DNA of 64,000 bases from NCBI GenBank assembly GCA_947492585.1, contig CANLND010000014.1:1-64000 (forward strand). The letters run 5' to 3'. This DNA is from an uncultured Paracoccaceae bacterium. Lineage in GTDB: Bacteria; Pseudomonadota; Alphaproteobacteria; Rhodobacterales; Rhodobacteraceae. This document shows, piece by piece, positions 2,074 to 43,156 of this stretch. Positions within the stretch are counted from its first letter, which is position 1. Every line of letters begins with the position of its first letter. A program made the translations under genes and the position numbers. The notes under the pieces are model-generated. The model worked only from the letters and a program-made list of their open reading frames with translations. It was not told the DNA's origin and did no database searches.

Positions 2074-2364
2074 CTCGCACCCTCGCGCCACAGAATTGCC
2101 CCGTTTGATCAGCCTGACGCGGAGACTTGGCAGCGCGGGACCGGGAATGCGGCAAAAGCAAGGAGACTGTCTTCAATCTAAGAACAATGCGTCGGAGTTT
2201 TGCCTTGCTTTGATCCCGCTTTGTCCGTGCGCCCGTTGTGCCGCATGTGTGTTGCACCTGCCCCGCACGCCCCATTTGCGCAACGCTCATCCGGCTCGGG
2301 CACAGTGGCGGGATGCGACCCTGTGCTGCCCCTCTCTTGCTGCCTGCCCAACCGGAGTGCCCCG
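2074..2364. promoter_or_regulatory. Divergent intergenic region between RTX gene and DUF2793 gene
   Basis: This 291-base spacer separates two divergent genes, so it must hold promoters for both. I see no convincing -35/-10 pair or inverted repeat. The ribosome binding site of the plus-strand gene (GGAG, 7 bases before the ATG at 2365) lies at its right end. Confidence 0.4.
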
Positions 2365-4837: not shown

Positions 4838-7800
4838 ATGCAAATTTCCACACGGCTGCAGCATTTATTTTCACATATTTTACCCCCCCGCGACGGCGCA
4901 GTAGACCAGACACCCTTAGCGCCGCACGCCCCCGCATCAGATCCCCCCGCCCCGCCCGCTGTCGCCGATGCAAAACCTGAAGAAACGCCAGCTCCAGTCG
5001 TGGATCTTGCCACCCTGATCAGGGACGCAAAGGCACAGGTAAAAGCCAAAGAATTTGCAGCCTCTGCGGCGCTTGCAACGCAGATCATGGATCTCGCCCC
5101 GGACCGGCGCGAAGGCTATCGCATTTACGCCGAGTCCTGCGCCAAAGGTGAAATCAACCTGGGATCGGCGTATGACATATTGCGCCGTGGCTACGGGAAA
5201 AACCTGCTGACAGCAGACATGCGGGATGTTCATCTGCGCCAAATCCTGACAGCGGCCATACATACCGCAGATACGGGCGCGGCCGTGTCCACCGGTGCCG
5301 ATCTTTTGCAGCAGGGCAACACCGACGAAATTGCGGCGCTCTTTTTGCAAGGCCCCCCCCAGCATCACACAGGAACCTCGTTCTGGCGTGACGTCCTTGC
5401 TGGTGTAGTGGCCCGGGTGACGACAGGGGAACAACACGATCTTTTGGCGATTCTGAAACCCTACCAGGACATGTTGTCCACATCGCTATCCACGGGTCTC
5501 TCAAACCCCGCCCCCAAAAAGAACCCCGCGCAGAACAAACCGATTGTGCACGTTGCCGCCACGCTCACCGCCAAGGCCCCAAAAGACGATGCCACCAGCG
5601 CCGACACATCGGCGTTTGAGCAATTGCAGGATCTTTATCCAAAACTACAGGCCAAACCTGACGCGCTTGGCCTGTGGAAACAGGCCGGGGATCTGGTGGG
5701 GCGCCGGGACGTCAGCCAGCGCCAGACCGCGCTGGAGGAATTGGTCCGCTATGCCCATGCCTCAGCCGCCCTGCCCTTGGATCGGCTTGGCATGTTGCTT
5801 GCAGGGTTTTCACAAAAATCCAGCTACAATGCGCTGGTCCCCTCTCCCGAACGTCAGCTGGCCATTGATCTGCTGCTGGCCGCCTATGAAAAGAGCGGCA
5901 AATCAGAGCTCGCAAACGCCGCCTTTAGCATCTTGCTTGGCTTGAATGATCTGGACGGCTGCACGCGTATACTTAACCTGTGGCAGGCGAAATCCCCAAA
6001 AGACGCGCATCAATATATCTCAAGATCACGCCTCGCGGTGGCCCATGAGGATCTGGACGCCAGCCTGACATATGCCCAAGACGCGGTCACCTGCGCGCCC
6101 GAAAGCGCGGCAACACATCGCCGTGTGTCCCATGCCTACCAAAGCCTGTCAGCCTATAGTGCCGCCCTGTCTCATTTGCAGATTGCCCGGGATATCCGGC
6201 CACAGGATGTGGGGATGCGCCAGGAGGCCGACAGATTACAACAGGAAGTGTCTGCCATCCGCGCCTTTGCGCCGGAACCCTTTGACGGCAGCCACATTGT
6301 GCCCCTGGCCCCCGACAGTGATCTGCGCCAGCTGACACAGGCGGCACAGGCAACCGCCCCCCGTCACCGCACCGCGCCAGGTTGGGTGCTCATCGCACCG
6401 TCAGAGCACAGAGAGCCTTTGCAAAACGACCTTGGAGCTTTGGAGACACTGCCAGGGGGGGCGGCGTTTTACTTTGGCGGCTGTACTTCAGATGAGCCTG
6501 CGCCAAGCGCATCGGACTGGGCGCTGCTGCCCCAGTCGACGTTGCAGCTGTTGTTAGAGCGTGGAGCCCGCAGCGGTCAGGCCTGTCTTGAAGATCTGCG
6601 CAGGCACTTTCGCGGCTGCTATCTGCCCTTGGCCGCAGCCCTGCGCGCAGGGATTCAGCCCCCCGTAGAACAGCCCCAAGAGGCCCCAAAACCCACATCA
6701 ACACCGGTGTTCACCGCTGCCGCCGCCCAATTGATGGCCCAGCCCCCCGAGGCAATCGACCCGGCCTCGGTCGCGCAGATGGACACCAGCCAGATCCTTG
6801 TCGCGACCCCTCAGGACTGGAGCGCGATCCAATCCGCCGTCCACTTGCTTGATCTGCATGTGGTGATGCTTATTCCCGCAGGCTTTACCGACGGATGGGG
6901 CCATCTGCTGGATCCCGATGTTGTCAAAAATACAAGCTGGCTGGCCTATGCCTCCAGCCTTATCTTCACCGATCTCAAAGACGAAGAACGCTTTGAAGAC
7001 CGGGTGCAGATCGCCGCGCCGGTCTATGACAGCTACGAAGACGGTTTGACCACCGCCTGTGCTGTCGCCCAACAGCGCGTCTGCCTTGCGATCGGTGCGG
7101 GGCTTGGCAATATGCTGTTTGTCACGCCTTTGATCCGCGAGATTGCCGAAACAACAGGATGCCCTGTGGATCTTGTGGTCAATTCCCCTGTGAGCACTGC
7201 GGTACAGCTTTTTGGGGAAAGCCCCTTTGTGAACATTGTCTGCACCACAGATCGCTGCCGACGTGTGGCCTATGACAAGGTCTTTGTCACCAGCTGCTTT
7301 GGCAATGTGCCCTTTGGCCTGCGCACCAAAAAACGCATATCCCAACGCCCTGCCTATGATTTCATGACCCGCACACGCGATATGAATGAAGCCGAATATA
7401 ATTTCCTGTCAGCCGAAACCCTGTTTCCAGGGCTCACCCAGCCAAAATCCCTGGCCGGGCGCATGTTCATCCGCGCCATTGATCCCCGCCCCGCCCCCCG
7501 TGCTGGGGCGCAGCCGGTCATTGGGGTCAGCGGACCCAAGAAAACCGATCTGTGGTCGCGCCGCCAATGGTCCAAATTCCCCGAACTGGTGCAGGCCTAT
7601 CACGCCGAAGGCACCGATATCCGGGCCTTTGGACTGCCCGGCGAAGACATTGATGGCGCTCTCGACTGCACCAGCGGCGTATTGCGTCAGTCGATCCGCG
7701 CCATGGCGGACTGTGATCTGTTCATCTGTGGTGACGGCGGGATTTTCCATATCGCAGACGCATTGGGGCTGGACACGGTTGCCATCTTTGGTCCCACAAG

Positions 7801-9913
7801 CGCCATCAAAAATGGCCCCGTCAACGGGCGGACAACCGTCTTGCAAAGCGATATGGCCTGTGTGCCCTGTCAGTACAATCAGTCCTTTATGGACTGTCGT
7901 TACACCGCCTGCATGAGCGCCATTACCCCGCAGCAGGTGCGCGACATCGTCAAACGCCGTCTGGCGCAGGATCCAGATCCCGAATTGCTGCATCTGCCGG
8001 ACAGCGCGCGCCAAAAGCCCGCTGGAAACTTCCGCTTTGCTCAGTCGGATAAAACCCAATGTTATCAAATGATGCAGCTTGGGCAAAAAGCAACCCACAC
8101 GTTGTTTGACAGTGCCCTGCGGCACAATCGGCTGGCGCGCGCGCAACATCACATCGAATGGATTTTCACCACAGGCTCCGCCCAAAACACCGACTGGCTG
8201 AAACGGGCCAGACTGACATTGCGCCGGGGTGAATTTGCAGAAGCGCTGCAAATCTGCGGCGCGCAGGCCCCCTTTGCGCCCACCCAAAAAGCAGCGGCCG
8301 AATGGCTGCGGATGCAATTGGAAGCTCTGCTGAAAACCCACGACACCACCGGCGTGCTGACCCTGTGGCAGGACCGTATGGACAGCTTCGCCCCCGCGCC
8401 GGACGACAAAGGCCTGCGCGACATTCACTCCCGCATCCACTGGAATGTGGCGCAGGCCTTGTTGCGGCTTGGCCGCTGGCAGGAGGCCTATACGGAAATT
8501 GAAACAGCCCTCAGCCTGGATCCGAAATTAACCTCGGCCCAAAAGGCCTTGCTGAGTTTCAAATCCGCCTCTTACAACAGCCCAGAAGAGCGCGCCAAAA
8601 TCACCGGGGACACAAAGCCCCGACTGCTGATTTCCAGCACCGTATCAGCGCGCGAAACGCTCAGCGCGTGGCGTGATCAGTTTGAAATTTTCCGCGCAGA
8701 AGACGAACTGCCTGCCAGCTTTGCAGGGTTTTCGGCTGTGATCCGGCATCAGAACGAAGATCCGGCACAACCGCTGGAAGCCTGTCTGATCAATGACGGT
8801 ATCCTGGCCGCCCCCCGCAAACTCCCGCAGGTTCTAAAAGCCCTGTCCACAGCAGGCACCCCCCAATCCGGGTCTGACAAAAAGCGGATTGTCGTTGTTG
8901 CCCATCACCATCTGGAACTGTGGAACCCGCGCGGCGGGGAACGCTCGACCCATAATATCGTCAGCAAACTGCAAGAACAGGGCCATGACATTCTTGTTGT
9001 TGTTGAAAACAAGAAAAACGAAGAGGTCGGCTGCGAGATCTGCGAAGGGCTGCCCTATGTGCTGGCGGGGCGCTATGCGCTGAAACAGACGCTGGAAGAC
9101 GTGCTGGACACCTGGATGCCAGATGCCGCGATTTTGTACGGTGAAACGGCGCTGCGGGCTTATGAAACACTGCTGGACCGGAATGTCCCCTATCAGATGT
9201 TCCCGCGGGATTGGCAAGAGATCTGCCCCCGTCCCTATACCAACCTGCTGAACCGAAACCCGCTGAAAACACAAGACGGGGCCTTTTATCATCTGCTGAA
9301 CGGCGCCGCTGAGGTGATCACAAATTCAAACTACGTCGGTGAGGTCATTCGCCATCTGCACGATCTGCCCTCGATCAATTCATATGTGCCGGTTGAACAC
9401 CCCGAACGGGGGGGGCGACATGATCCCAATGGGCCCATCCTGCTGGTGAACCCGCGCAAGATGAATGGCGGGGCTTTGGTCATGAAACTGGCCAAAGAAA
9501 TGCCACACCGCCGGTTCCGGGTTGTTGGCGATTACGGCAAACCCTTCCCGCCCAATGTCGACGTCGAGCCGTTTTTCAATGGCCGCTATGAAGACCTCTA
9601 TGATGGCAGTTCCGTGTTCCTGTTCCCGCTGATTGGCGAAGACCCCTGTGGCACCGGCCGAGTGGTGTTTGAGGCCTTGCATTGTGGTGTGCCAAGCATC
9701 TCAATGGATATTGGTGGCATGAAGGAAGTTCTGCCTCCCGAATGGCTTGTCGCCGGGGAAGACCCGCAGGAGTGGAGCGTCGCAATCGAGCAGATCCTGG
9801 CCGATCCAGACGCCAGCGCCCGCTGTGACACCCTGCTTGGAAAATTTGAAGCCGACGCACAATTTGCAATCGTCAACGCCAGCTTAAAGCGAATTCTCAA
9901 CAATGATGCATGA
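4838..9913 (+). CDS. Giant TPR - GT9 (heptosyltransferase-like) - TPR - GT4 fusion glycosyltransferase
   Basis: A 1691-aa protein. Residues about 60-130 and 260-480 are alpha-helical TPR-like repeats; about 490-740 is an unrecognised region. Residues about 745-1040 are a GT9 heptosyltransferase-like domain: it opens with AIGAGLGNMLFVTPLIREI, has FICGDGGIFHIADALGLDTVAIFGPTS..NGP at the nucleotide-sugar site, and a Cys-rich tail (CVPC, then CMSAITPQQV). More TPR-like helices span about 1050-1290. Residues about 1349-1691 are a GT-B GT4 domain, with HHHLELWNPRGGERSTHNI at the start and GEDPCGTGRVVFEALHCGVPS near the end. There is no signal peptide or membrane segment, so it is probably cytoplasmic. 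The start has only a weak ribosome site. The methyltransferase gene overlaps its end by 11 bases. With heptose-precursor genes nearby it probably transfers heptose plus a second sugar; the acceptor is unknown. Confidence 0.8.
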   Translation: MQISTRLQHLFSHILPPRDGAVDQTPLAPHAPASDPPAPPAVADAKPEETPAPVVDLATLIRDAKAQVKAKEFAASAALATQIMDLAPDRREGYRIYAESCAKGEINLGSAYDILRRGYGKNLLTADMRDVHLRQILTAAIHTADTGAAVSTGADLLQQGNTDEIAALFLQGPPQHHTGTSFWRDVLAGVVARVTTGEQHDLLAILKPYQDMLSTSLSTGLSNPAPKKNPAQNKPIVHVAATLTAKAPKDDATSADTSAFEQLQDLYPKLQAKPDALGLWKQAGDLVGRRDVSQRQTALEELVRYAHASAALPLDRLGMLLAGFSQKSSYNALVPSPERQLAIDLLLAAYEKSGKSELANAAFSILLGLNDLDGCTRILNLWQAKSPKDAHQYISRSRLAVAHEDLDASLTYAQDAVTCAPESAATHRRVSHAYQSLSAYSAALSHLQIARDIRPQDVGMRQEADRLQQEVSAIRAFAPEPFDGSHIVPLAPDSDLRQLTQAAQATAPRHRTAPGWVLIAPSEHREPLQNDLGALETLPGGAAFYFGGCTSDEPAPSASDWALLPQSTLQLLLERGARSGQACLEDLRRHFRGCYLPLAAALRAGIQPPVEQPQEAPKPTSTPVFTAAAAQLMAQPPEAIDPASVAQMDTSQILVATPQDWSAIQSAVHLLDLHVVMLIPAGFTDGWGHLLDPDVVKNTSWLAYASSLIFTDLKDEERFEDRVQIAAPVYDSYEDGLTTACAVAQQRVCLAIGAGLGNMLFVTPLIREIAETTGCPVDLVVNSPVSTAVQLFGESPFVNIVCTTDRCRRVAYDKVFVTSCFGNVPFGLRTKKRISQRPAYDFMTRTRDMNEAEYNFLSAETLFPGLTQPKSLAGRMFIRAIDPRPAPRAGAQPVIGVSGPKKTDLWSRRQWSKFPELVQAYHAEGTDIRAFGLPGEDIDGALDCTSGVLRQSIRAMADCDLFICGDGGIFHIADALGLDTVAIFGPTSAIKNGPVNGRTTVLQSDMACVPCQYNQSFMDCRYTACMSAITPQQVRDIVKRRLAQDPDPELLHLPDSARQKPAGNFRFAQSDKTQCYQMMQLGQKATHTLFDSALRHNRLARAQHHIEWIFTTGSAQNTDWLKRARLTLRRGEFAEALQICGAQAPFAPTQKAAAEWLRMQLEALLKTHDTTGVLTLWQDRMDSFAPAPDDKGLRDIHSRIHWNVAQALLRLGRWQEAYTEIETALSLDPKLTSAQKALLSFKSASYNSPEERAKITGDTKPRLLISSTVSARETLSAWRDQFEIFRAEDELPASFAGFSAVIRHQNEDPAQPLEACLINDGILAAPRKLPQVLKALSTAGTPQSGSDKKRIVVVAHHHLELWNPRGGERSTHNIVSKLQEQGHDILVVVENKKNEEVGCEICEGLPYVLAGRYALKQTLEDVLDTWMPDAAILYGETALRAYETLLDRNVPYQMFPRDWQEICPRPYTNLLNRNPLKTQDGAFYHLLNGAAEVITNSNYVGEVIRHLHDLPSINSYVPVEHPERGGRHDPNGPILLVNPRKMNGGALVMKLAKEMPHRRFRVVGDYGKPFPPNVDVEPFFNGRYEDLYDGSSVFLFPLIGEDPCGTGRVVFEALHCGVPSISMDIGGMKEVLPPEWLVAGEDPQEWSVAIEQILADPDASARCDTLLGKFEADAQFAIVNASLKRILNNDA

Positions 9914-14245: not shown

Positions 14246-17200
14246 TCACCCCTGCACAGTTTCCAGATGCAGCAGCACTTTATCGCGCACCTCTTCCAGC
14301 GACAGATCCTGCATCCCCGTGCAGGTCTTAAACCGATCGGTGAACTGACAGGGGCAGCAGTCATTTTTGGGCGAAATCACCTGACTGTCCGGCGACAGGG
14401 GACCGTTTTTCACCACGCTGGTCGGGCCAAAAAGCGCCGTCAGCGGCACCCCAATGCCATCGGCCACATGCATCAAGCCGCTGTCATTGGCAATGACATA
14501 GCCCGCATCGCCAATTGTCTGGAGCGTTTCAACCAAAGGTGTTCCGGTCCGGTCCACCGTTCCAGCCACATATTCATGTGGCATGCCGGTTGAAATCACC
14601 TCCCAGCCCCGCGCCATCAGGTCTTTGGCCAAGGCTTCAAAAAGCGGCCAGCGTTTGACCTCCCATTCCCCCGGTTTGCCCCCCGCATGCAGGACAATCC
14701 TGCGACTGCCAAGCCCTGTGGGCTTTTGATCGCGTACAAAATATTTGGCCACATCCTCAGGCTGATAAGTCAGGCCGATATCCGCCGCCACCAAACAGTC
14801 CAGATTATACTGGGATTCATGCATGTTTTCCGTCGCTTCAAACGGAATTTTATGCCGCGCAATAAAGGTCCGTTTGGCATGGAACTGCGGCACCGCTTTG
14901 CCAAAGGAGGCCAAGACCAGAACCAGATCATAGCGGCGGCGCATATACTCAGAGTCAGATCCGTACACCATGCCCACATAAGGCGATCCGGCAAACAGCC
15001 ATTCACAGCCTGGGAAATCCTGATTGATGACAATATCCACCGGCTGGCCCAGATGTTCCGACAGCCGACGAATGGCGGGCGTACATTGAATGATATTGCC
15101 AATGCCATTTCCAACCGCCACCAGAACCGGACGCAGAGCCTGGCGCACCAATCGCGCATGGACCGGCACCTGATCGGCAAATTCATAGCGCTCTGAATTT
15201 TCAACCGCCCGCTGCGCGCGCTGTGCCCAATACGCCGGATCTTCCTGCAAATGTGTCAGCTCTTTGGCCCAAAGCTCTGCCTGTTCCGGCAAGGCCACAC
15301 CAGATTGCGCCAGCAACAGCGGAACATTGCCCCGGTTGCTGCCAATCACCGGCACCCCAAAGCGATGCGCTTCAATCACCACCCGCGAAAAGGTCTCAAT
15401 AAAGCGGTAGCTTGGCACCATCACACACCAGGCCCGTTGATACAGCGCCGCCATATCCTCGACCTGATCGATGATCTCCAGATTGTCCAAACCTGCCTGC
15501 TGCACCGCGATCTGGGCTTCTTCGCGGGCGGATTGCCCGGCGATGGCCACAAATTTGTAGGTCGGGCAGCGCGCCGCCACCTGCAACAGCAGATCAAAGC
15601 CTTTTTCGGGCCGCGCGTTCACCAACAGCACAATATCGCGCCCCTCCCGAACCGCCTCTTGCGTGGTGGTTGTGGGCAGGGAATACAACACATCCGTTGT
15701 CAGGGTGTGATGCGTATATTGCATCTCCTGCGTATAGGCTGAATTGGCATAGACCGCCTCATTGCGCAGCAGCAGCGGGGTGAATTCCTTTTTGGGCGCG
15801 GCCATTTGATCGATGTCCGGGAACCAGCCACTGCCGCGCAGCATCTCACGCCAAAAATGCGTGCCATACACAATCGCCACCTCCAGATCCTGGGTGCAGC
15901 GCAATACAAAAGGCCCCGACCCCGTCACCACATGGAGCAGCGTCGGAGCGCGCTCTAACAGCAGCTGCCGGAACCCCTGTTCATCGTTGTCGCGCAGTTG
16001 CAAAAACGCAATACCGTCCGGGGTGACCCCCTCGTTCTGGCTGTCCCCGCGGTGCCCCACCAGAACCGGGCGAAATCCCATGCCCCGATACAGCTGCGCC
16101 ATGCCGCGCAGGAAATGCTCGGCCCCGCCAAACAACGTATGGCCCGAGGATGAGATCAGAAAAACCTCTCCGCCCAGCTGGGCCAGTGGCTGCATGTGGG
16201 TCGGCAGCTCCTGCCCCAAAGGCGGATAAATCTCGCGCCCCCGCCGCATCACAAAGGCCGGCAACTCCGCCTCAACAGCCGGAGTTGCGCCATCAAAGGC
16301 CGCCAAGGCCTCGCGCGCAAACTCAGCTGAGACCGCCACCAGCTCACGCCCTCCCCCCGGCACCGCCGCACATAACACGGCGTCCGTCGCCCCGCGCAAA
16401 CGATCACAGATGGCACGGCGCGCGCCCACATCATAAGAGGGCGCATCAAACACAATCCAATCATGTGTCGCCTGTTCAATGGCCCGGCGCAGCCCCATCG
16501 ACGCGTCGCCCGCCACCTGTGCAACCTCATCGGCAAACGCCGTCCACTCCTCTGCCTGCCCCGCGCAGATCGACAGCGACAGGGGCGTGTTGTGCCCGGC
16601 ATCAAAAATCGCCAAATTTGTCAAAACCCGCTGTGCGCTGACCTTGTCCGGTTCAATTTCCAATGCCTTTTGCGCGCGCTGGCGGGCGTCGCCATACCGT
16701 CCGTTTTCAAGATAAATCGCCGCCAGATCCGCATTGATTGTTCCTGAATTTGGCTCAATTTCCAAAGCCTGCTGCAGCAAATGTTCCGCGTCTTTTTGCT
16801 GGTCGGCATGGGTGCAGATCATTGCCAGCTCGCGATAGGCGCTGGCCTGTCTCGGGCTCAGCCGGATCACCGCTTCAAAATGCTCTTTGGCCTGATCAAA
16901 CACGCCCTGACGCGCCAGCACCCGCGCATAGATAAAATTGGCCCGGCTGTTGTTGGGATCGGTCTCCAATAAACCTGCCAAAGTCTCGGCCGCACGATTA
17001 AGAACACCCGATTTCAGATCACATTCGGCCAGTTCGAGCGCCACCAGATTTGCCCGTGCGCCCAACTCACCGGCGGTTTTGAAACAGGTCGCCGCGTCTT
17101 TGGAATTGCCAATTTCACGCTGGATACGGCCCAGAGTGTACCAACTGTCCTGACTGTTGGGGCGAATGTCCATGATCTGGCGCAGGGTCTCTTGCGCGGC

Positions 17201-18370
17201 CTCAGGTTTGCCCGCTTTTTTCTGGGTTTCACGCAAATGGAACAAGCGCGCCGCGGGATCCTGCTCATCGGCCTGCGCCTGCGATAAAATCTCTTCTGCC
17301 CGCTCCACCTGCCCAATCCGCAGGGCCGCCCGCCCATAAGCCACCCGAAGATCCGGCGTCAGCAGAGCTTCTTTTTCGCACTGTTCAAAGCTTGCAAAGG
17401 CTTTGTCATGCTCCTGCAATTCCGTATAGCCCCTAGCCTGCATCACCCATTTTTTGGGATCTTCGATCTGCGCATCCTGCAGGCGCTGCAAGGCCTGCAA
17501 GGCCTCGTCCCGCGCCCCCAGTCTGTCGCGGGCCTGCGCCAAATGAAACAGCACCGCAGGCTGCACATCTGGCCGCGCAGCCAGATCCTGCAACAGCCCC
17601 GATGCCTGCGAATTGTCTGCCAGCTGCAAATACGCCCGCGCCCAGACCAGCCGCGCGGCCGGCCCCAATGGGTGCAGCGCCTGCGCCCGCTCCAGCGCAG
17701 ACACGGTTTCGGCGTAGCGCGCTCTTTGAAAGGTCAAGATCCCTAGATCGCGCAGCACATCATGTGCGTCACCATAGGTGGCCAAATATGCGTCGAGGAG
17801 AGAGTGCGCCCCGGCCAAATCCCCAGCCTTGCGCAAAGCCGCAGCCTCTGTGCGCTGCGCCGCCTGATGGGTTTTTCGCGCGCGCGACAACAGCGCCTCG
17901 TGTTGCGGATCCAGCGGCGCAATCATACGGAGCCGTTCAAGAGCCTCGATCACCCCGGCCATATCGCCAGTGCCCTCGCGCGCAAGGATCAGTTCCGACA
18001 GAAATTGAGGATCGTTTGGCCGCTTGCGCAGCAGGTCTTCCAGCAGCCGTATCGCCACCGGATAGTCCTGTTGTTTGCGAACGCGCTGAACTTTTTTATA
18101 TTTAAAGAATGTGAACATCTGATACGTCCCAATCAAAACTTTCAGCGCCAGCCACGGTCTGTGTCTCACATATGAGACCAAACCGCAGACGAAGAGGCCA
18201 ACAAACGCCCCGCAGTACAGGATAAGCCACAGCAAGATCCAATCTGTCCCAATATTTTGGCAAGCGCCAGATATTGGGGCATAATATCGCTCACTATTGG
18301 CGCCCAAAGGGGCTGCATATCTGAAACTGATAGCGGTATACGCGTCGGCATTACAATCGGTTTCTGCCAT
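14246..18370 (-). CDS. Giant membrane-anchored TPR - GT4 - GT9 (heptosyltransferase-like) fusion glycosyltransferase
   Basis: About 1374 aa from ATG 18370. Alternatives are ATG 18427 (better AAGG site) and ATG 18118, which would drop the membrane segment; the longer frame runs into the divergent hldD gene and is not credible. Residues about 44-68 (WILLWLILYCGAFVGLFVCGL) form one transmembrane helix. Residues about 90-560 are TPR repeats with canonical spacing (FDQAKEHFEAVIRLSPRQASAYRELA). Residues about 730-1070 are a GT4 domain (SGHTLFGGAEHFLRGMA, ARPEKGFDLLLQVA, RVVIEAHRFGVPVIGS). Residues about 1080-1374 are GT9: AVGNGIGNIIQCTPAIRRL, IANDSGLMHVADGIGVPLTALFGPTSVVKNGP, CCPCQF. The modules are those of the giant gene at 4838 but with GT4 before GT9. 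Likely an inner-membrane enzyme adding heptose and another sugar; acceptor unknown. Confidence 0.8.
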   Translation of the reverse strand: MAETDCNADAYTAISFRYAAPLGANSERYYAPISGACQNIGTDWILLWLILYCGAFVGLFVCGLVSYVRHRPWLALKVLIGTYQMFTFFKYKKVQRVRKQQDYPVAIRLLEDLLRKRPNDPQFLSELILAREGTGDMAGVIEALERLRMIAPLDPQHEALLSRARKTHQAAQRTEAAALRKAGDLAGAHSLLDAYLATYGDAHDVLRDLGILTFQRARYAETVSALERAQALHPLGPAARLVWARAYLQLADNSQASGLLQDLAARPDVQPAVLFHLAQARDRLGARDEALQALQRLQDAQIEDPKKWVMQARGYTELQEHDKAFASFEQCEKEALLTPDLRVAYGRAALRIGQVERAEEILSQAQADEQDPAARLFHLRETQKKAGKPEAAQETLRQIMDIRPNSQDSWYTLGRIQREIGNSKDAATCFKTAGELGARANLVALELAECDLKSGVLNRAAETLAGLLETDPNNSRANFIYARVLARQGVFDQAKEHFEAVIRLSPRQASAYRELAMICTHADQQKDAEHLLQQALEIEPNSGTINADLAAIYLENGRYGDARQRAQKALEIEPDKVSAQRVLTNLAIFDAGHNTPLSLSICAGQAEEWTAFADEVAQVAGDASMGLRRAIEQATHDWIVFDAPSYDVGARRAICDRLRGATDAVLCAAVPGGGRELVAVSAEFAREALAAFDGATPAVEAELPAFVMRRGREIYPPLGQELPTHMQPLAQLGGEVFLISSSGHTLFGGAEHFLRGMAQLYRGMGFRPVLVGHRGDSQNEGVTPDGIAFLQLRDNDEQGFRQLLLERAPTLLHVVTGSGPFVLRCTQDLEVAIVYGTHFWREMLRGSGWFPDIDQMAAPKKEFTPLLLRNEAVYANSAYTQEMQYTHHTLTTDVLYSLPTTTTQEAVREGRDIVLLVNARPEKGFDLLLQVAARCPTYKFVAIAGQSAREEAQIAVQQAGLDNLEIIDQVEDMAALYQRAWCVMVPSYRFIETFSRVVIEAHRFGVPVIGSNRGNVPLLLAQSGVALPEQAELWAKELTHLQEDPAYWAQRAQRAVENSERYEFADQVPVHARLVRQALRPVLVAVGNGIGNIIQCTPAIRRLSEHLGQPVDIVINQDFPGCEWLFAGSPYVGMVYGSDSEYMRRRYDLVLVLASFGKAVPQFHAKRTFIARHKIPFEATENMHESQYNLDCLVAADIGLTYQPEDVAKYFVRDQKPTGLGSRRIVLHAGGKPGEWEVKRWPLFEALAKDLMARGWEVISTGMPHEYVAGTVDRTGTPLVETLQTIGDAGYVIANDSGLMHVADGIGVPLTALFGPTSVVKNGPLSPDSQVISPKNDCCPCQFTDRFKTCTGMQDLSLEEVRDKVLLHLETVQG

Positions 18371-18481: not shown

Positions 18482-19468
18482 ATGTTTCTCGTCACCGGAG
18501 GCGCCGGGTTTATCGGCTCTAACATTGCCAATCAATTGAGCAAGCAAGGCAAAGACGTTATGATTTGTGACTGGCTGGGCCAGGACAATATCAAATGGAA
18601 AAACCTGATCGGCACAACGATCCACCGCTTTGTTGCGCCCGAAGATCTGCCTGCCACGCTGCAGGCCTCTCGCGGTAAAATTGAAGCCGTCATTCACATG
18701 GGGGCAATTTCGGCCACCACCGAGACCGACGGCGATCTGGTGATGCGCTCCAATTTCCAACTGTCGCAGGATTTGTGGAACTGGTGCGCCAGCGAAGACA
18801 TCCCCTTTGTCTATGCTTCCTCCGCCGCCACCTATGGCGACGGCGATCTTGGCTTTGTGGATGGCAATGATCTGGAGGCCACCCGCCGCCTGCGTCCGCT
18901 CAATCTTTATGGCTGGTCCAAACAGCTGTTTGACATCTGGGCGCTGGATCACGTCGCCAAAGGCCGGCCCAGCCCGCGCCAATGGGCAGGCCTGCGGTTC
19001 TTTAACGTCTATGGCCCCCGCGAGAACCACAAAGGTTCAATGATGAGCATCGTCTGCCGCAACTATGAAAAATGCGCCGCCGGGGACACTGTTCAGCTGT
19101 TTAAATCCCACAAGGACGGCGTCAAAGATGGCGAACAACTGCGCGATTTCATTCACGTCGAAGACTGTGTGAACGTCATCGAGTTCTTGCTGAACACGCC
19201 CAACCGCAACGGTATCTTTAATGTGGGCACCGGTCAGGCCCGCAGTTTCCGCGATCTGATCACTGCGACCTATACCGCCAGTGGTCACAGCGAAAAAATT
19301 GAATATATTCCGATGCCGGAACAGCTGCGCAATCGATATCAGTACTTTACCCAGGCCGATATGACCCACCTGCGCAGCAGCGGCTACAATCGCCCCTTCC
19401 TGACCCTTGAAGAAGGGGTGCAGAAATACGTCACCGAATATCTTTCTCGCAGCGAACATGATCGCTGA
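18482..19468 (+). CDS. hldD: ADP-L-glycero-D-manno-heptose 6-epimerase
   Basis: A 328-aa protein, close to the usual 310-330 aa. ATG 18482 is chosen because the protein then opens with the Rossmann motif MFLVTGGAGFIGSNIANQL and an AGGA site precedes it; a start 27 bases earlier adds non-family residues. The motifs GAISATTETDGD, YASSAATYGDG and YGWSKQLFD are those of HldD, and YGWSK holds the catalytic Tyr/Lys. It converts ADP-D-glycero-D-manno-heptose to the L-glycero epimer, the final donor. It heads the plus-strand set hldD-hldE-gmhA-gmhB. Confidence 0.95.
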   Translation: MFLVTGGAGFIGSNIANQLSKQGKDVMICDWLGQDNIKWKNLIGTTIHRFVAPEDLPATLQASRGKIEAVIHMGAISATTETDGDLVMRSNFQLSQDLWNWCASEDIPFVYASSAATYGDGDLGFVDGNDLEATRRLRPLNLYGWSKQLFDIWALDHVAKGRPSPRQWAGLRFFNVYGPRENHKGSMMSIVCRNYEKCAAGDTVQLFKSHKDGVKDGEQLRDFIHVEDCVNVIEFLLNTPNRNGIFNVGTGQARSFRDLITATYTASGHSEKIEYIPMPEQLRNRYQYFTQADMTHLRSSGYNRPFLTLEEGVQKYVTEYLSRSEHDR

Positions 19469-19497: not shown

Positions 19498-20952
19498 ATT
19501 TCGCCGTTATTGGATTTCAAATCAGCTCGTGTCGCCGTGTTTGGCGATTTTGTACTGGATCGCTATGTCACCGGCACCGTCAGCCGGATTTCTCCAGAAG
19601 CCCCGATCCCGGTGCTTCTCAAACAACAGGAAACTGCGGTTTTGGGCGGCGCAGGCAATGTCGCGGCCAATATTCACACCCTGGGCGCCACCCCCATTCC
19701 CGTTGGTCTGTTGGGCGATTGCGCCGAAGGCCGTGAGGTCTGTTACCAGTTGGACAACATGGGCATTTCTGCCGCCCATCTGAACCAGACCGGCGCGCGC
19801 AACACCCCGGTGAAAACCCGTTTCATCGGCGGCCATCAGCAGATCCTGCGGCTGGATCGGGAAACCATCCAACCGCCGTCAGCATCAGAACATCAATGGC
19901 TTTTGGATGCAGCCCAATCGGTGGACTGTGACATCGCCATCCTGTCCGATTATGGCAAAGGCACCCTGCTGAACGGCGCCGCCGAAGCCCTGATTGAGGT
20001 TCTGCGCGCCCGGAACATCCCTGTGTTGGTGGACCCCAAAGGCACCGATTACAGCAAATACCGGGGCGCAACGGCCCTGTCGCCCAATCTCAAAGAACTG
20101 GGAGAGGTCAATGGCGCGCCCTTGCAGGGGGATACACAAATCATCACCACCGCGCGCGGATTGATTTCAGATCTTGATCTGGACTTTATGATAGCCACCC
20201 GCGGCGAAGACGGCCTGTCGATTGTCCTGGCAGAGCGTGATTTTCATATGCCCACCTTTGCGCGTGAGGTCTTTGATGTCTCGGGCGCCGGTGACACGCT
20301 GATCTCAGCCTTTTCAGTGGCGTTTGCCTCTGGGCATTCCATCGAGGACAGTTCGCGGATTGCCAATGCAGCCGCCGGCTTGGTGGTGGCCAAAAACGGC
20401 ACTGCAACCGTCACCCAGGCCGAGGTCGAACAGGCCCTGCACCAACGCAGCCAACGCAGTGGGGACGAAAAAATCCAAACCCGCGCAAATGCCCAGGCCA
20501 CCGTCAAAAGCTGGCGGGATCGTGGCCTGAAAGTGGGCTTTACCAATGGCTGCTTTGATATTTTACACCCCGGTCATGTGTCGTTGTTTGATCAATCCGC
20601 AGCCCGCTGTGACCGGCTGGTGGTTGGCTTGAACACAGATGCCTCGGTGCAGCGTCTCAAAGGTCCAACGCGCCCGGTGGTCGATCAGGACTCCCGTGCC
20701 CAGGTTCTGGCCGCGCTTGGCATGATTGATCTGATTGTTCAATTTGACGAAGACACACCTTTGGAGCTGATCACAGCGCTACAGCCGGATGTGCTGATCA
20801 AAGGCAGCGATTACCAGGAACATGAAATTGTCGGTGCCGATGTGGTCAAAGCCAATGGCGGCCGTGTGGAACGCGCCATTCTGGTAGATGGCAAAAGCAC
20901 CAGCCGCATCGTAAAACGCATTTCCGACACCACAGAAAGCACCGCTACATGA
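19498..20952 (+). CDS. hldE: Bifunctional heptose-7-phosphate kinase / heptose-1-phosphate adenylyltransferase
   Basis: About 484 aa. Residues about 5-315 are a PfkB-type kinase: FGDFVLDRYVTGTVSRISPEAP, VLGGAGNVAANIHTLGA and the anion-hole motif DVSGAGDTLISAFSVA. Residues about 345-480 are the nucleotidyltransferase, with VGFTNGCFDILHPGHVSLFDQ and GLNTDASVQRLKGPTRPV. It makes heptose-1,7-bisphosphate and, after GmhB removes the 7-phosphate, ADP-heptose. No ATG or GTG is available at the 5' end. The AGGAG site at 19485-19489 lies 8 bases before an ATT codon at 19498 but 20 bases before the first TTG (19510), so an AUU start is the better fit. It lies 29 bases after hldD and overlaps gmhA by 4 bases. 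Confidence 0.9.
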   Translation: MSPLLDFKSARVAVFGDFVLDRYVTGTVSRISPEAPIPVLLKQQETAVLGGAGNVAANIHTLGATPIPVGLLGDCAEGREVCYQLDNMGISAAHLNQTGARNTPVKTRFIGGHQQILRLDRETIQPPSASEHQWLLDAAQSVDCDIAILSDYGKGTLLNGAAEALIEVLRARNIPVLVDPKGTDYSKYRGATALSPNLKELGEVNGAPLQGDTQIITTARGLISDLDLDFMIATRGEDGLSIVLAERDFHMPTFAREVFDVSGAGDTLISAFSVAFASGHSIEDSSRIANAAAGLVVAKNGTATVTQAEVEQALHQRSQRSGDEKIQTRANAQATVKSWRDRGLKVGFTNGCFDILHPGHVSLFDQSAARCDRLVVGLNTDASVQRLKGPTRPVVDQDSRAQVLAALGMIDLIVQFDEDTPLELITALQPDVLIKGSDYQEHEIVGADVVKANGGRVERAILVDGKSTSRIVKRISDTTESTAT

Positions 20953-21527
20953 CCAGTCTTGACGATTATATCGCCCGCAGCGAACAGGCACTGCGCCGCA
21001 TGCGGGACGCCAATCTGGGCCCGGCGCTGGAGCAGGCGGCGGACGTGCTGGTCAGCGCGCTCAGCCAGGGCAAACCGGTTCTGGTCTGCGGCAATGGCGG
21101 ATCGGCCAGCGACGCCGAACATATTGCCGGCGAACTGGTGGGACGTTTTCTAAAAGAGCGCCCCGCGTTTAATGTCATTTCTCTGGTGTCAAACGCCGCG
21201 GTGATGACAGCCTGGTCCAATGATTATGACTATGAAACCGTGTTTTCCCGTCAGGTGCAGGGGCACGGAGCCGAAGGCGGCGTGCTGCTGGGCATCTCCA
21301 CCAGCGGCAATTCGGCCAATGTCATCAAAGCCGCAGAACAGGCGCGCGCGATGAACATGTCGGTGGTCACTCTGACCGGTGAAGGCGGCGGCAAGCTGGC
21401 AGCGCTCTCGGATGTTTTGCTGGCGGTGCCAGACAAAACAACCGCGCTGGTGCAGCAGGGTCACATCACCCTGTATCACCATCTGTGCTACCTGCTGGAA
21501 GAACGTCTGGCCCCCAGCGCCACATGA
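20949..21527 (+). CDS. gmhA: Sedoheptulose-7-phosphate isomerase
   Basis: A 192-aa protein of standard length, made of one SIS domain. It shows VLVCGNGGSASDAEHIAGELVG, AAVMTAWSNDYDYETVFSRQ, LLGISTSGNSANVI and the C-terminal QQGHITLYHHLCYLLE, all diagnostic of GmhA. It converts sedoheptulose-7-phosphate to heptose-7-phosphate, the first committed step of heptose synthesis. It overlaps hldE and gmhB by ATGA junctions, so the genes are translationally coupled. Confidence 0.96.
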   Translation: MTSLDDYIARSEQALRRMRDANLGPALEQAADVLVSALSQGKPVLVCGNGGSASDAEHIAGELVGRFLKERPAFNVISLVSNAAVMTAWSNDYDYETVFSRQVQGHGAEGGVLLGISTSGNSANVIKAAEQARAMNMSVVTLTGEGGGKLAALSDVLLAVPDKTTALVQQGHITLYHHLCYLLEERLAPSAT

Positions 21528-22156
21528 GTTTTCTGACCGAACCCGGCGTCTGGGTGGAACGGCGCAGCGCGCGCCGCTTTCCAACTGGACGCGCGCTGTT
21601 TCTGGACCGCGACGGGGTGATCAATGTGGATCATGGCTATGTCGGCGATCCCAAAGATGTCACCCTCATCGCGCCCACCGCGCGGCTGATTGCACGGGCC
21701 AATGCCGCCGGGATTGCAACCGTGGTGGTCACCAATCAATCCGGCATCGGCCGGGGCTATTATGATTGGGACGGGTTTGCTGCCACCATGGACCGCATAC
21801 ATGAAACGCTTGTGCCCTATGGCGCCACGCTCGATATGGTCTGCGCCTGCGCCTATCACCGCGATGCCCTGCCGCCCTATCAGGACGCGTCGCACCCCAC
21901 ACGCAAACCCAATCCCGGCATGATCACCCTGGCCTGCGCGGCGCTGGATCTCGACCCGGCAGCCTCGTTGATCATCGGGGATTCCTGGAGCGATATGCAG
22001 GCCGGCGCGGCCGCAGGTGTCCCCACGGGGGCCTATCTGGGACGCACACCACCGCCCAGCCCGCTTCCAACGTGCCACGTCACCGCCTATAGTCTGCCAC
22101 AGGATGGGGATCAGCTGCTTGCAGATTACGAGACCCACTTACAGGCCACAGCCTGA
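21524..22156 (+). CDS. gmhB: D-glycero-D-manno-heptose-1,7-bisphosphate 7-phosphatase
   Basis: A 210-aa HAD-superfamily phosphatase starting at ATG 21524, overlapping the gmhA stop (ATGA). ALFLDRDGVINVDHGYVGDP holds the catalytic DxD near residue 27; VVTNQSGIGRGY and RKPNPGMITLACAALDLDP are GmhB motifs; IGDSWSDMQAGAAAGV is the Mg-binding motif. CACAYH is part of the variable metal-binding loop of the family. It dephosphorylates heptose-1,7-bisphosphate between the two HldE steps. With it the four ADP-heptose genes are complete on this replicon. Confidence 0.95.
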   Translation: MSFLTEPGVWVERRSARRFPTGRALFLDRDGVINVDHGYVGDPKDVTLIAPTARLIARANAAGIATVVVTNQSGIGRGYYDWDGFAATMDRIHETLVPYGATLDMVCACAYHRDALPPYQDASHPTRKPNPGMITLACAALDLDPAASLIIGDSWSDMQAGAAAGVPTGAYLGRTPPPSPLPTCHVTAYSLPQDGDQLLADYETHLQATA

Positions 22157-30577: not shown

Positions 30578-30615
30578 AAGATCCTGTTCTGAGGGCGCTC
30601 AGGACAGGATCTTTT
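30578..30615. terminator. Strong terminator overlapping the 3' end of the kpsT-like gene
   Basis: A 16-bp stem AAGATCCTGTTCTGAG (30578-30593) / CTCAGGACAGGATCTT (30598-30613) with one G-U pair and a GGCG loop, followed by TTTT. It ends the plus-strand GlfT-like gene. Its right arm lies within the last codons and stop of the convergent kpsT-like gene. Confidence 0.9.
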
Positions 30616-31252
30616 CATGCAGGTCAATGGCCTCTTCCAGATCCTCAAAATAGCGCGCCTTGCCGTTCTCAAGCACCACGCCGGCATTACAGAACTGGCG
30701 GATCTGATCCATCGAGTGATTGACCATGATGGCGCTGGCGCTTTCCATCCGTTCGCGAAACAGCTGCCGGCTTTTGCGCTTGAACGACCGATCCCCCACC
30801 GCCGTCACCTCATCCACCAGATAGGTGTCAAATTTGATCCCCATTGATGCACCAAAGGTCAGACGCGATTTCATGCCGCTGGAATAGCTCGACACCGGCA
30901 TGTGAAAGGATTTCCCCAGCTCAGCAAAATCCTGCACAAAGGCCACCAGCTCATCCGTGTCCACGCCGTAAATGCGCGCCACAAACCGCACGTTCTCGGC
31001 CCCTGTCAGCTCGCGGTGGAACGATGAAGCCAATCCCACCGGCCACGAAATGGTGCCATCGCTCAGCACCCGACCGCTGTCGGCGTGCAAAGTGCCCGAA
31101 ATCATCTGCAACAGGGTCGATTTCCCGGCCCCGTTGCGCCCCAATAGAGCCAAAGATTTCCCCGTGGGCAAGGTCAGGGACAGATCATCAATCACCACCC
31201 TGCGTTGGCCACGCAGACGAAAGCTTTTGGTCAGATGCTCAATACGGATCAT
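30599..31252 (-). CDS. kpsT: Polysaccharide ABC exporter, ATP-binding subunit (KpsT-like)
   Basis: A 217-aa ATPase, the usual length for capsule exporters. Walker A GRNGAGKST is at 38-46, the signature SSYSSGMKSR at 121-130 and Walker B YLVDEVTAVGD at 144-154, followed by the H-loop in MVNHSMDQI. SWPVGLASSFHRELTGAENV is the KpsT/Wzt-type Q-loop region. There is no C-terminal carbohydrate-binding domain of Wzt type, so it belongs with group 2 capsule exporters that act after chain completion. It lies 11 bases downstream of the kpsE-like gene; the permease gene is divergent from them. Confidence 0.93.
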   Translation of the reverse strand: MIRIEHLTKSFRLRGQRRVVIDDLSLTLPTGKSLALLGRNGAGKSTLLQMISGTLHADSGRVLSDGTISWPVGLASSFHRELTGAENVRFVARIYGVDTDELVAFVQDFAELGKSFHMPVSSYSSGMKSRLTFGASMGIKFDTYLVDEVTAVGDRSFKRKSRQLFRERMESASAIMVNHSMDQIRQFCNAGVVLENGKARYFEDLEEAIDLHEKILS

Positions 31253-31263
31253 CCTGTCGCCCC

Positions 31264-32622
31264 TCAGCGCCGATCCCGGATCGAATAATAGACCAATGCC
31301 AGAATGGACCAGCCCAACAACGAAAAGATCAGGGTCAGACCAATCAGGATCAACCGCTGCGGATATTGTGCCGCCTCGGCATGGGTGGGTTTGATATAGG
31401 CCGCCAGATACCGGCTTTGACGATTGACCTCATCGCGGGCCACCTCCAGCGCTGTCAGCGCCGCGCGATAACTTTGCTCGGCATATTCCCGGTCCACCAC
31501 CAACCGTTCATATTCGGACAGCAACGACGGGTAATCCTCTCCGATGCCCCCATTTTGCGTGGCCTCCGCTGAGGCAAAAGAGGTGCGCTCCAGATCAATC
31601 CGTTTGCGGATCACATCAATGCGTTTTTGGGCATTGGTCAGGCGGGGATCATTGGTCCCCAAAGAGCCCCGCAGAAGATCAAATTCAATCAACGCCTCTG
31701 CCAGCTGCTGCTGCAGATTGTTCATCACCCCCATACGGCCCTGAATGTCAGCTTCGGGATCGACAATCCGGGTGCGGGTGCGAAACTGGATCAAGGCTTC
31801 GCGGGCATCTTTCAACCGGTTCAACGCCTCCTCAAGATCGGCCTGCGCATAGCCCATCGCATCGGCGCGCGCCTGTTCGTTCAACGCATTGATCCGGGTC
31901 TGACTGAGTTCCACAATGGTGCGGGTGATCGCCTGCGCCATATCCGCATCATAAGCCGCGGCGCGCACCTCGATCAGCCCTGATCCGCTGTCATACGAAA
32001 TGCCCAAAATCCGTTGCCAGTACCAGGTTAGGTCTTCCAGCGTTGGATCCGGCCAGAGGGCAAACATCCAGTCGCGCGGCCAATGCGCAGCAAAGTGACC
32101 TTTGAGATCAAGAGCCGCATCCACATCCGCGACCAGTTCCTGGCTTTGAATATATTCATACAGGATATCGCTGTCAGAGGCGGTGCTGCCACCGGTGAAC
32201 TGCGCCAGCCCCCCCAACAGATCATTGGCACCTGCGCTTTCCTGACTGCGCACCGCAAACCCCGCGCTCGAGCCATAGCGGTCTTCTGCGATAGCGGTCA
32301 GATAAAAGATCACCAATGCCACCGGCAACAGCACCAGCAGTCCAAAGCTGGCCATCAGCCCCCAGTGACGCCGCTTCATCTTGGCGGGTTTTGCCATCGG
32401 GGGGCGCTGTGCGGCCGCCAGCTGCTGTTGCAGCTTTTCCACGGTCTCTTCGGCCGCGATGGCACGGCGACGCGCAGCGGCCACTTTGCCACCGCCCTTC
32501 TTTTTGCTGCCTTGCAGTTCTGAGGTGTCTGCACCTGCAGGCAACGCCGCCAAGGTCGCAGGTTGTGGGTCTGCGTCTTGCGACGCCGGCTTTGCTTCAG
32601 CGGCCGCGCGGTCCTGTGTCAT
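31264..32622 (-). CDS. kpsE: Capsule polysaccharide export inner-membrane protein (KpsE-like)
   Basis: A 452-aa protein starting at ATG 32622 with an AAGGA site in front. Residues 1-90 are charged and flexible (SKKKGGGKVAAARRR). A membrane helix follows (about 97-120, LMASFGLLVLLPVALVIFYL), then a periplasmic part with FAVRSQESAGAND and a long coiled coil (about 240-380). A second membrane helix near the C-terminus (RLILIGLTLIFSLLGWSIL) precedes a short cytoplasmic tail. This is the PCP-3 / KpsE layout; such proteins link the ABC transporter to the outer-membrane exit protein. The N-terminal extension is longer than in E. coli KpsE but common in alphaproteobacteria. Confidence 0.9.
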   Translation of the reverse strand: MTQDRAAAEAKPASQDADPQPATLAALPAGADTSELQGSKKKGGGKVAAARRRAIAAEETVEKLQQQLAAAQRPPMAKPAKMKRRHWGLMASFGLLVLLPVALVIFYLTAIAEDRYGSSAGFAVRSQESAGANDLLGGLAQFTGGSTASDSDILYEYIQSQELVADVDAALDLKGHFAAHWPRDWMFALWPDPTLEDLTWYWQRILGISYDSGSGLIEVRAAAYDADMAQAITRTIVELSQTRINALNEQARADAMGYAQADLEEALNRLKDAREALIQFRTRTRIVDPEADIQGRMGVMNNLQQQLAEALIEFDLLRGSLGTNDPRLTNAQKRIDVIRKRIDLERTSFASAEATQNGGIGEDYPSLLSEYERLVVDREYAEQSYRAALTALEVARDEVNRQSRYLAAYIKPTHAEAAQYPQRLILIGLTLIFSLLGWSILALVYYSIRDRR

Positions 32623-32751
32623 CGATAACTGTCCTTTTGGAGCCACAGCGTGCCCCTGCCTCAGAGCTGTTTGTAAATGTCATATCTATCGCCCATAGTA
32701 TCACCCGTAAGCCAACCGTTCACAACGGGTTTTCACCGCCCAAGAGTTTTC

Positions 32752-33588
32752 ATGACCAACCTTTCCCAGCCACCTCTTTCTCCGCCTGTTGCCCCGGATC
32801 TGACCCCGGTGCGCAGCAGCAACCGGCGCTTTGCCGCGATGCGCACGATTGTCGCGCTGATGCTGCGCGAAATGTCGACCCGTTACAGCCGCACCCCCGG
32901 CGGATACCTGTGGAATGTCATCGAACCTTTGGCGGCCATTTTGTTTCTCAGCCTTGGGTTTTCCCTGTTTCTGCGAACCCCCGCCCTTGGGACCAGCTTT
33001 CTGCTGTTTTACGCCACCGGCTATATGCCCTTTGATCTTTATGGGGTGATCGCGCGCACCTGCGGGGGGGCGATCACCTTTTCCCGCCCGTTGCTGCGGT
33101 TTCCGGCGGTCACCTGGGTCGACGCGCTATTGGCCCGGTTTGCGCTGAACGGGCTGACGGGCGTGCTGAACACCGGGCTATTGCTGGGCGGAATTTTACT
33201 GCTGATCGACAGCCGCACCATTCTGGACCTGCCGCCCATTTTGCTGGCCCTGTCGCTGTCCTTGATGCTGGGGCTCGGGGTGGGGGCCGTCAACTGCGTG
33301 CTGACCGGATTGTTCCCCATCTGGAGCCTATTGTGGGGGATTATCAACCGGCCACTGTTTCTCGCGTCGGGGGTTTTCTTTCTTTATGATGAGATGTCAC
33401 CACTGGCCCGCGAGATTTTATGGTACAATCCACTGGTCCATGTCGTTGGATTGATGCGCAGCGGGTTTTATCCAACCTATACTGCCGCATATGTCAACGT
33501 GACCTATGTCATGCTGATCGCGACCACCCTGTTGGCGCTGGGGCTCTTGCTGCTAGGGCGCTATCACCGCGATATCATCAACCGATAA
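32752..33588 (+). CDS. kpsM: Polysaccharide ABC exporter, permease subunit (KpsM-like)
   Basis: A 278-aa ABC-2 type permease. Met at 32752 is preferred to one 75 bases earlier because it gives the usual short cytoplasmic N-terminus. MLREMSTRYSRTPGGYLWNVIEPLAAILFL is the typical start of KpsM proteins. About six membrane helices follow, with WYNPLVHVVGLMRSGFYPTY before the last one. It forms the membrane pore with KpsT. It is divergent from kpsE-kpsT across a 129-base spacer rather than in one operon with them, which is unusual. Confidence 0.9.
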   Translation: MTNLSQPPLSPPVAPDLTPVRSSNRRFAAMRTIVALMLREMSTRYSRTPGGYLWNVIEPLAAILFLSLGFSLFLRTPALGTSFLLFYATGYMPFDLYGVIARTCGGAITFSRPLLRFPAVTWVDALLARFALNGLTGVLNTGLLLGGILLLIDSRTILDLPPILLALSLSLMLGLGVGAVNCVLTGLFPIWSLLWGIINRPLFLASGVFFLYDEMSPLAREILWYNPLVHVVGLMRSGFYPTYTAAYVNVTYVMLIATTLLALGLLLLGRYHRDIINR

Positions 33589-35982: not shown

Positions 35983-36034
35983 ATCGTTAGGTCTCCTCGT
36001 GCCAGCACACTGACAGCAGTCTGTTATCGCAGCC

Positions 36035-37462: not shown

Positions 37463-37953
37463 GGGGCAAACCTTTTTAACTGCGGGCCAGATCCGCGGGC
37501 GAGAGGGGAATTCTGCGGTGTGATTTGGCCAATGTATCGTGTTTTCAGTAGAATACCACAAAAGGCATTACATGAAAGAAATATCGACACACACCTTAAT
37601 TTTTCTAAGCAAATCACACGTTTGCAACAAAGGTGACGGCGGGATTTTGCGCAATTTCGAAGCGTCTTGGATTTTTTTCCCTGTTATTTATGAGTTATAT
37701 ATTAGTTACGGCACCAAAGACACTACACAATATCCCTTTGTTTCAAGGGGATGGGGGGCAAAATTTTGGATGGGGTGAATCTAAAACCCCGATCAAATGA
37801 ATCTAATCCCCCGACAAGGTGACTCTGAACCCCCGTTGCGAGGGGCTGTGGATAACTCTAAGGTGAGCGTAATCAAAACCACGAAACCCGAGTCAGCCCA
37901 ACAAATGAGGCCAGCCGGGATGAGGCAAAGCCCAAAGGGCAGGTGGCAGTGAC
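37463..37953. promoter_or_regulatory. Intergenic region between parA and repA (promoters, AT-rich segment, origin)
   Basis: The 491-base spacer is AT-rich between about 37540 and 37720 and must hold the divergent promoters of parA and repA. Inverted 9-mers GTGTGATTT (37518-37526) and AAATCACAC (37611-37619) could be operator arms. The 12-mer GTTTGCAACAAA at 37620-37631 recurs inverted in the promoter region at 57442. The iterons and the DnaA box lie in the right third. Confidence 0.6.
37775..37855. other. oriV: Putative replication origin: three 22-bp iterons plus DnaA box
   Basis: Three directly abutting 22-bp repeats occupy 37775-37796, 37797-37818 and 37819-37840. They share the core (G/A)TGA(A/C)TCT(A/G)A followed by a C-rich run and G. 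A perfect DnaA box in inverse orientation, TGTGGATAA, is at 37847-37855. An AT-rich stretch lies to the left and repA begins 98 bases to the right. This is the standard layout of an iteron-controlled theta origin bound by RepA. Confidence 0.85.
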
Positions 37954-43108: not shown

Positions 43109-43156
43109 CGCGGGGCACTTTTTTGGGGGCTGCGGGACTTTCATCCACGCTGGTCA

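Follow-up and report, generated by a model that had tools for sequence, protein, structure and literature searches.

Two giant GT4/GT9 proteins in a polysaccharide-export locus on a probable Paracoccaceae plasmid

A stretch of 64,000 nucleotides from an uncultured Paracoccaceae bacterium (assembly GCA_947492585.1, contig CANLND010000014.1), hereafter the window, represents bases 1-64000 of a 107,955-base contig and harbors two giant genes, A and B, each coding for a protein that combines glycosyltransferase domains of families GT4 and GT9 with tetratricopeptide repeats (TPR). As judged from sequence, B probably acts as a bifunctional glycosyltransferase within a plasmid-borne polysaccharide-export locus, adding heptose and a second sugar, and A is probably a separate composite and not a reshuffled B. 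B and its relatives appear to form a rare GT4-GT9 family, sporadic across Alphaproteobacteria, with Asn in place of the GT9 catalytic-base Asp; A would be a more diverged composite assembled apart from them.

Domain architecture of the two proteins

Gene B (14246..18370, minus strand) encodes a TPR-GT4-GT9 protein of 1374 amino acids (aa) as read from the ATG at 18370, a start that is uncertain. On the basis of Pfam, motifs, alignment and modeling, it was divided into a TPR region (residues 91-600; 16571..18100), a GT4 domain (residues 716-1078; 15137..16225) and a GT9 domain (residues 1078-1374; 14249..15139), all on the minus strand. The Pfam matches, all over the curated cut-off, were TPR repeats at approximately 100-595, GT4 with its best stretch at 908-1059 and GT9 at 1235-1342. 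The GT4 domain scored 61.9 bits against a Glycos_transf_1 cut-off of 26.4 and contains the intact EX7E motif (ETFSRVVIE), and the GT9 domain scored 51.5 bits against the PF01075 cut-off of 22. In the latter, GN replaces GD, and the sequence FGPTSVVKNGP and a Cys-containing tail are present. A structure model of B 706-1374 had a mean predicted local distance difference test (pLDDT) value of 72.8 and a predicted template modeling score (pTM) of 0.72, and its best PDB matches were the GT-B enzymes sucrose-phosphate synthase (6kih), MshA, BshA and PimA, with the GT9 structure 3tov at rank 20.

Gene A (4838..9913, plus strand; open reading frame and Pfam) encodes a GT9-TPR-GT4 protein of 1691 aa without an N-terminal hydrophobic helix. 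The Pfam order was GT9 (949-1019), TPR_2 (1199-1230; 24.1 bits, below the cut-off of 27) and GT4 (1572-1656). Its GT9 domain (residues 744-1042; 7067..7963, plus strand) scored 49.9 bits against PF01075 and was placed by profile and tree in the GT9 subfamily of B as a divergent member. The GT4 domain (residues 1341-1691; 8858..9910, plus strand), which was not sister to that of B, scored 31.6 bits and thus passed the cut-off, but a Cys opens its EX7E motif in place of the first Glu, so that the GT4 signature of A is only half complete. The two GT9 domains shared 32% identity over ~290 aa (155 bits), far above chance; beyond GT9 the proteins were weakly alignable (TPR, 33 bits; GT4, 31 bits). 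The model of A 471-1045 had a mean pLDDT of 57.4 and a pTM of 0.49, with the GT9 part better and residues 471-760 mostly below 50; it matched WaaC first, followed by 3tov, WaaF and TibC. The models of A and B were both derived from six-row alignments. When residues 471-760 of A were compared by profile with the N-lobe region of GT4, no match to a decayed GT4 ahead of the GT9 of A emerged; retention of such a remnant is therefore unsupported rather than excluded by sequence and model. A methyltransferase with a weak N-terminal TPR match (9903-11078) overlaps the end of gene A by 11 bases and, as a guess, could be a capping methylase.

An earlier note on this DNA, made from the letters alone, had described two giant GT4/GT9 proteins with opposite module order, and the Pfam assignments bear this out. 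It had also drawn attention to an unusual tail common to both GT9 domains. The motifs FGPTSxxKNGP (B 1314, A 984) and CxPCQ (B 1338, A 1008) were indeed found in both proteins, but the tail is not private to the pair, as FGPTSxxKNGP is also present in three giants of other genera (5 of the 12 subfamily members described below).

The membrane anchor proposed in the same note for B alone was upheld as a prediction, with a qualification. B contains a hydrophobic helix (residues 44-68; 18167..18241, minus strand), a possible anchor that is weaker in relatives; over approximately residues 44-65 its 19-residue hydrophobic mean reached 2.39 against 0.88 for the N-terminus of A, which has no strong stretch. 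The usual threshold for such stretches is a 19-residue mean of 1.6. The best means within the first 150 residues of nine relatives were 0.70-1.63, two of them (1.62 and 1.63) being at the threshold and none near B. The G+C content at third codon positions of B rose from 0.395 in codons 1-43 to 0.707 in codons 44-84, and lay at 0.62-0.69 beyond these. The low value at the beginning makes the true start doubtful and possibly later, and whether B has the anchor at all turns on where translation begins.

The GT9 subfamily and the origin of A and B

Twelve GT9 domains, including those of A and B, constituted one subfamily, reaching 327-493 bits against a profile made from five members; the canonical GT9s of the same Roseomonas-type genomes scored ≤41 bits. 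A GT4 domain or GT4 C-lobe directly precedes GT9 in 10 of the 12, and the order of B is thus the usual one; in A, no GT4 was detected before GT9 and one lies behind it. Pfam TPR repeats were found in eight of nine subfamily proteins scanned, the upstream partner being used for the split pair of Sulfitobacter sp. S223, and none in the S223 giant. A thirteenth, distant relative was a free-standing 378-aa frame of genome G775 (L050 1423-2559, minus strand) with GT9 only, which scored 98 bits in the profile search, carried KRW, NDSG and a CxxC...C...C tail in the residue check, and served as the subfamily outgroup. The Roseomonas giant (L011 6590-11461) has an extra Glyco_trans_1_2 domain (residues 189-326) ahead of its TPR region, and some GT4-GT9 giants may therefore be three-headed.

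A review on heptosyltransferases gives D13 as the proposed base of HepI, present in every heptosyltransferase compared there, and reports a 4688-fold loss of specific activity for D13A (PMC5713226). The proposed base of TibC is Asp110 (PMC4358343). The equivalent Asp was replaced by Asn in all twelve subfamily GT9s and in the distant G775 relative; four of four canonical GT9s from the same genomes have Asp at this site. The Asn site was placed by profile alignment to WaaC and 3tov, in which the N-terminal pieces were short, low-scoring and ungapped. The donor-side Asp equivalent to HepI D261 was kept in 12/12 members and the Lys of the KRW motif in 11/12, this Lys being equated with HepI K192 via the WaaF alignment; its placement against HepI itself was ambiguous. 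The C-terminal tail contains four Cys in 11 members and three in the Pseudoroseomonas protein L040; B has two of its four side by side, and Gly occupies the position of the last Cys of the others. Their spacing is unlike that of the TibC four-Cys iron finger.

In Wenxinia and in a second gene pair of S223, the GT4 enzyme itself is split: the upstream protein stops after the N-lobe, and the next gene codes for the C-lobe and, after it, GT9. One gene gives way to the next at TGATG in S223 and at TGAGATG in Wenxinia, the break falling at an identical protein position in both, and the GT9 domains of these genes grouped at a support of 100/99, so that a single event could account for both splits. 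A DUF6165 protein adjoins the split genes in both S223 (L009 27845-28234) and Wenxinia (L010 6247-6618), and a TPR-GT4-GT9 protein of Roseomonas carries DUF6165 as an N-terminal fusion (L037 9162-9527); DUF6165 was not found in the 64-kb window.

The family is rare. In the own assembly, which is 95.6% complete, PF01075 detected two GT9 domains, both at this locus. Among 295 family genomes, an even draw from a larger group, five matched PF01075 at E ≤ 1e-5, three of which (G207, G053 and G090) spanned 33-36 profile positions; longer matches were confined to the own genome and Wenxinia marina (G050), and hldD at E ≤ 1e-60 was found in the own genome alone. The heptose pathway and GT9 are hence both rare in the family and adjacent here. 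Gene B at 1e-20 matched 3/295 family genomes, one through its GT4 part alone, and the GT9 pair profile at 1e-10 matched 1/18 genus genomes, the own. A scan of genome contigs detected four loci (Roseomonas populi, Rhodoblastus acidophilus, Wenxinia marina and Pseudoroseomonas aerophila), and plasmid searches found B relatives on plasmid unnamed3 of Sulfitobacter sp. S223. The contig scan used two short peptide patterns and B-type sequences, not A, and the counts of both the contig and the plasmid scans are lower bounds. GT9 searches at E ≤ 1e-20 matched 2/200 Roseomonas-family genomes (the centre genome and G775) and 1/186 genomes of the Rhodoblastus class (the centre genome itself). No further A-type gene was present in the 295 family genomes (query A residues 740-1691; G050 matched in GT9 alone), nor in the plasmids searched or the 18 genus genomes with the GT9 pair query; in a phylum draw of 398 genomes at a strict 1e-25 the own genome was the sole match. 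The order of A was thus found nowhere else in this limited sample, and with it no second genome carrying the A/B pair, an absence that the earlier note had itself named as speaking against its proposal. A phage or virus origin was considered; two viral-contig scans and one phage search with A revealed no relative. No description of these fused GT4/GT9/TPR proteins was recognized in the open-access literature searched.

The earlier note had further suggested domain shuffling within this locus and had proposed separate trees of the two domains. In the GT9 tree with canonical rows, in which the canonical L021 row carried >100 aa of extra N-terminal frame, a seven-member clade was recovered (96/98), with A, B and the Roseomonas, Pseudoroseomonas and Rhodoblastus giants outside; the same split was obtained at 99/98 without canonical rows. 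With the G775 outgroup, A, B and the three giants formed one five-member group (85/87, not starred), within which A grouped with the three giants and B stood apart (89/88, not starred). Sisterhood of the A and B GT9 domains was accordingly not the best tree, costing 3.9, 2.2 and 3.3 log units in three row sets, and not rejected either. A as kin of L040, which has TPR-like sequence straight before GT9, was rejected with a p-value of 0.0068 in the approximately unbiased (AU) test. In the GT4 tree, B fell with other GT4-GT9 proteins (82/85); A, whose branch is very long, grouped with free-standing GT4s (89/87). A and B as GT4 sisters were rejected (17.2 log units, AU p 0.0067), whereas A with all B-type rows was not (p 0.09). 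The free-standing f_L039 and f_RhizCB_2, L040 and both split genes were left out of the GT4 tree, for which two long proteins were trimmed to GT4. Owing to the long branches, the placement of A is unsure. More probably, A acquired its GT9 from the lineage to which the giants belong, and its GT4 has a different source.

Proposed function and alternative explanations

Divergent from gene B lie four plus-strand genes that together would provide an ADP-heptose route: hldD, coding for ADP-heptose 6-epimerase (18482..19468; TIGR02197 over cut-off), hldE, coding for heptose-7-P kinase/heptose-1-P adenylyltransferase (19510..20952; TIGR02199 over cut-off, but below the cut-offs of the full-length equivalog and kinase-domain models), a gmhA-like sedoheptulose-7-P isomerase gene (20949..21527) and a gmhB-like heptose bisphosphate phosphatase gene (21485..22156), the latter two by best match below the equivalog cut-offs. 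Linkage of hldE to B-type genes was seen in six of eight assessable loci, the window included and L040 not assessable; a 78-aa fragment is present in the seventh and none in the eighth, Wenxinia. The fragment lies beside the Roseomonas giant (L011 3587-3820), and another hldE is found at G677:C18. Further along the window, library models identified a polysaccharide ABC exporter (30599..33588) consisting of an ATPase (30599-31252, minus strand), a BexC/CtrB/KpsE-like protein (31264-32646, minus strand; below the cut-off of that model) and a permease (32677-33588, plus strand).

It is proposed that the GT4 domain of B adds one sugar in a retaining reaction, as its family suggests, and that the GT9 domain adds heptose, drawing on ADP-heptose supplied by the neighbouring hldD-hldE-gmhA-gmhB genes, the donor being suggested by linkage. 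The GT4 sugar would differ from heptose and enter the same glycan, presumably an exported polysaccharide, and the TPR region could organize the protein or its partners. The acceptor of GT9 may be activated by a group other than Asp, or the reaction may differ. The main grounds for caution over the mechanism are the loss of the Asp and the situation in Wenxinia.

Several observations weigh against this proposal. The change of Asp to Asn may have left the GT9 domain weakly active or inactive. A lacks the first EX7E Glu in GT4 and has Arg for the KRW Lys in GT9. No GT4 was found in L040 between its TPR-like sequence and GT9, in a frame interrupted by the contig start, and GT4 is therefore not obligatory. 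Sisterhood of the A and B GT9 domains gave AU p-values of 0.099, 0.209 and 0.114 in the three row sets. Finally, Wenxinia marina, with its split GT4/GT9 pair, had no hldE match at E ≤ 1e-10 and no hldD match at E ≤ 1e-60; its donor may thus not be ADP-heptose, which speaks against a universal use of this donor.

The GT9 domains could alternatively be non-catalytic, serving in donor or acceptor binding or as a scaffold, with sugar transfer by GT4 alone. The uniform Asn would agree with this, but the donor-side Asp is invariant, the KRW Lys nearly so, and conservation extends across orders; GT9 is linked to hldE, and Asn is also found in the free-standing relative, which has no GT4. We consider this explanation unlikely. 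Still less likely is a TibC-like glycosylation of protein instead of polysaccharide. TPR regions are found in protein-modifying transferases, which would suit such a role. The four-Cys tail also resembles the four-Cys iron finger described for TibC (PMC4358343). However, the profile gave 65 bits for WaaF and 16 bits for TibC, and the neighbours are polysaccharide genes. Lastly, A and B can hardly derive from one gene permuted in this locus, an origin that the homologous GT9s with common motifs and the unrejected GT9 sisterhood would allow but that is highly improbable given the rejected GT4 sisterhood, the 50% identity of the B GT9 to that of Roseomonas vs. 31-32% to that of A, the tail motif in giants of three other genera and the best GT9 tree, which groups A with those giants.

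Beyond the reading of B as a bifunctional glycosyltransferase, a wider proposal is offered tentatively: the GT4-GT9 giants might belong to a new class of GT9 enzymes without the Asp base, in which a growing glycan might be handed from one active site to the other within one chain, with a GT4 half that can be split and with A assembled independently in reversed order. If true, a branch of GT9 would have a non-textbook catalytic mechanism, and, as the ADP-heptose pathway is near-absent in the sampled family and plasmid-borne here, surface-coat chemistry may move from one bacterium to another as one package.

Plasmid context and comparison with known systems

The first 77 bases of the contig are exactly its last 77 bases. 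The contig is therefore probably circular, though a repeat could give the same overlap. It is very probably a RepA-type plasmid of ~108 kb, with a replicon at 34888..38985 assigned by Pfam and best match: parB-like (34888-36186, minus strand; partition protein RepB model below cut-off), parA (36035-37561, minus strand; AAA_31 over cut-off) and RPA-family repA (37954-38985, plus strand; PF10134, 331 bits). Other window genes past the heptose set code for GT2 proteins, UDP-galactopyranose mutase and a GlfT2-like protein. A second polysaccharide set lies past the replicon (41252-59970), with a MurJ-like flippase, a Wzy_C protein (O-antigen-ligase/polymerase-like), an initiating transferase, a polysaccharide deacetylase and a sulfotransferase. 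Between A and B, at 11133-13964, Pfam identified a DegT aminotransferase, a hexapeptide acyltransferase and a GFO/IDH oxidoreductase in a row, which we take to be a likely amino-sugar route.

Sequence comparison indicated that plasmid unnamed3 of Sulfitobacter sp. S223, the carrier of B relatives, is a sister plasmid in organization, because replicon, partition and exporter genes are common to both (parA 74%, repA 68% and exporter 41-60% identity). A DUF2793 protein (51% identity) is also found on both (window 2200-3534; S223 L009 47082-48209), that of the window carrying a Peptidase_G2 autoproteolytic domain. Among the S223 heptose genes (L009 23509-27641) lies an AGE-family epimerase, with rfaE2 on one side and an HAD phosphatase on the other; no gmhA match was found in the 50 kb of S223 compared.

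The closest known plasmids are the Roseobacter RepA-type biofilm plasmids with a rhamnose operon. The RPA-family replicon, ParAB and surface-polysaccharide genes are common to that class and the present contig, but in the window, to which this comparison is confined, the activated-sugar cargo consists of ADP-heptose genes. A Sulfitobacter plasmid with rfbABCD is described in PMC13386836.

With TibC and the AAH autotransporter heptosyltransferases, the window proteins have in common the GT9 fold and a C-terminal Cys cluster; they differ in Cys spacing, in the replacement of the proposed base Asp110 and in a weak sequence match. With WaaF and WaaC they share the GT9 fold, the C-terminal donor half, the counterpart of HepI Asp D261 and, in all 12 subfamily members but A, the KRW Lys; unlike these enzymes, they have Asn for the catalytic-base Asp, and the window GT9s are fused to TPR and GT4. 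Both scored below the NCBIfam equivalog for heptosyltransferase II (WaaF), with 52.7 bits for B and 42.9 for A vs. 134.6 bits.

GT-B lobes on separate polypeptides are known from Alg13/Alg14 and EpsE/EpsF, and Alg13/14 is classed as GT1 and distantly GT28-like (PMC8993221). The GT4 part of the Wenxinia and S223 genes is similar in that its GT-B lobes lie on two polypeptides, and these relatives offer a natural test of GT-B lobe separability. In contrast to Alg13/Alg14, the enzyme split in Wenxinia and S223 is a GT4, and its lobes each carry a further module, TPR in one protein and GT9 in the other.

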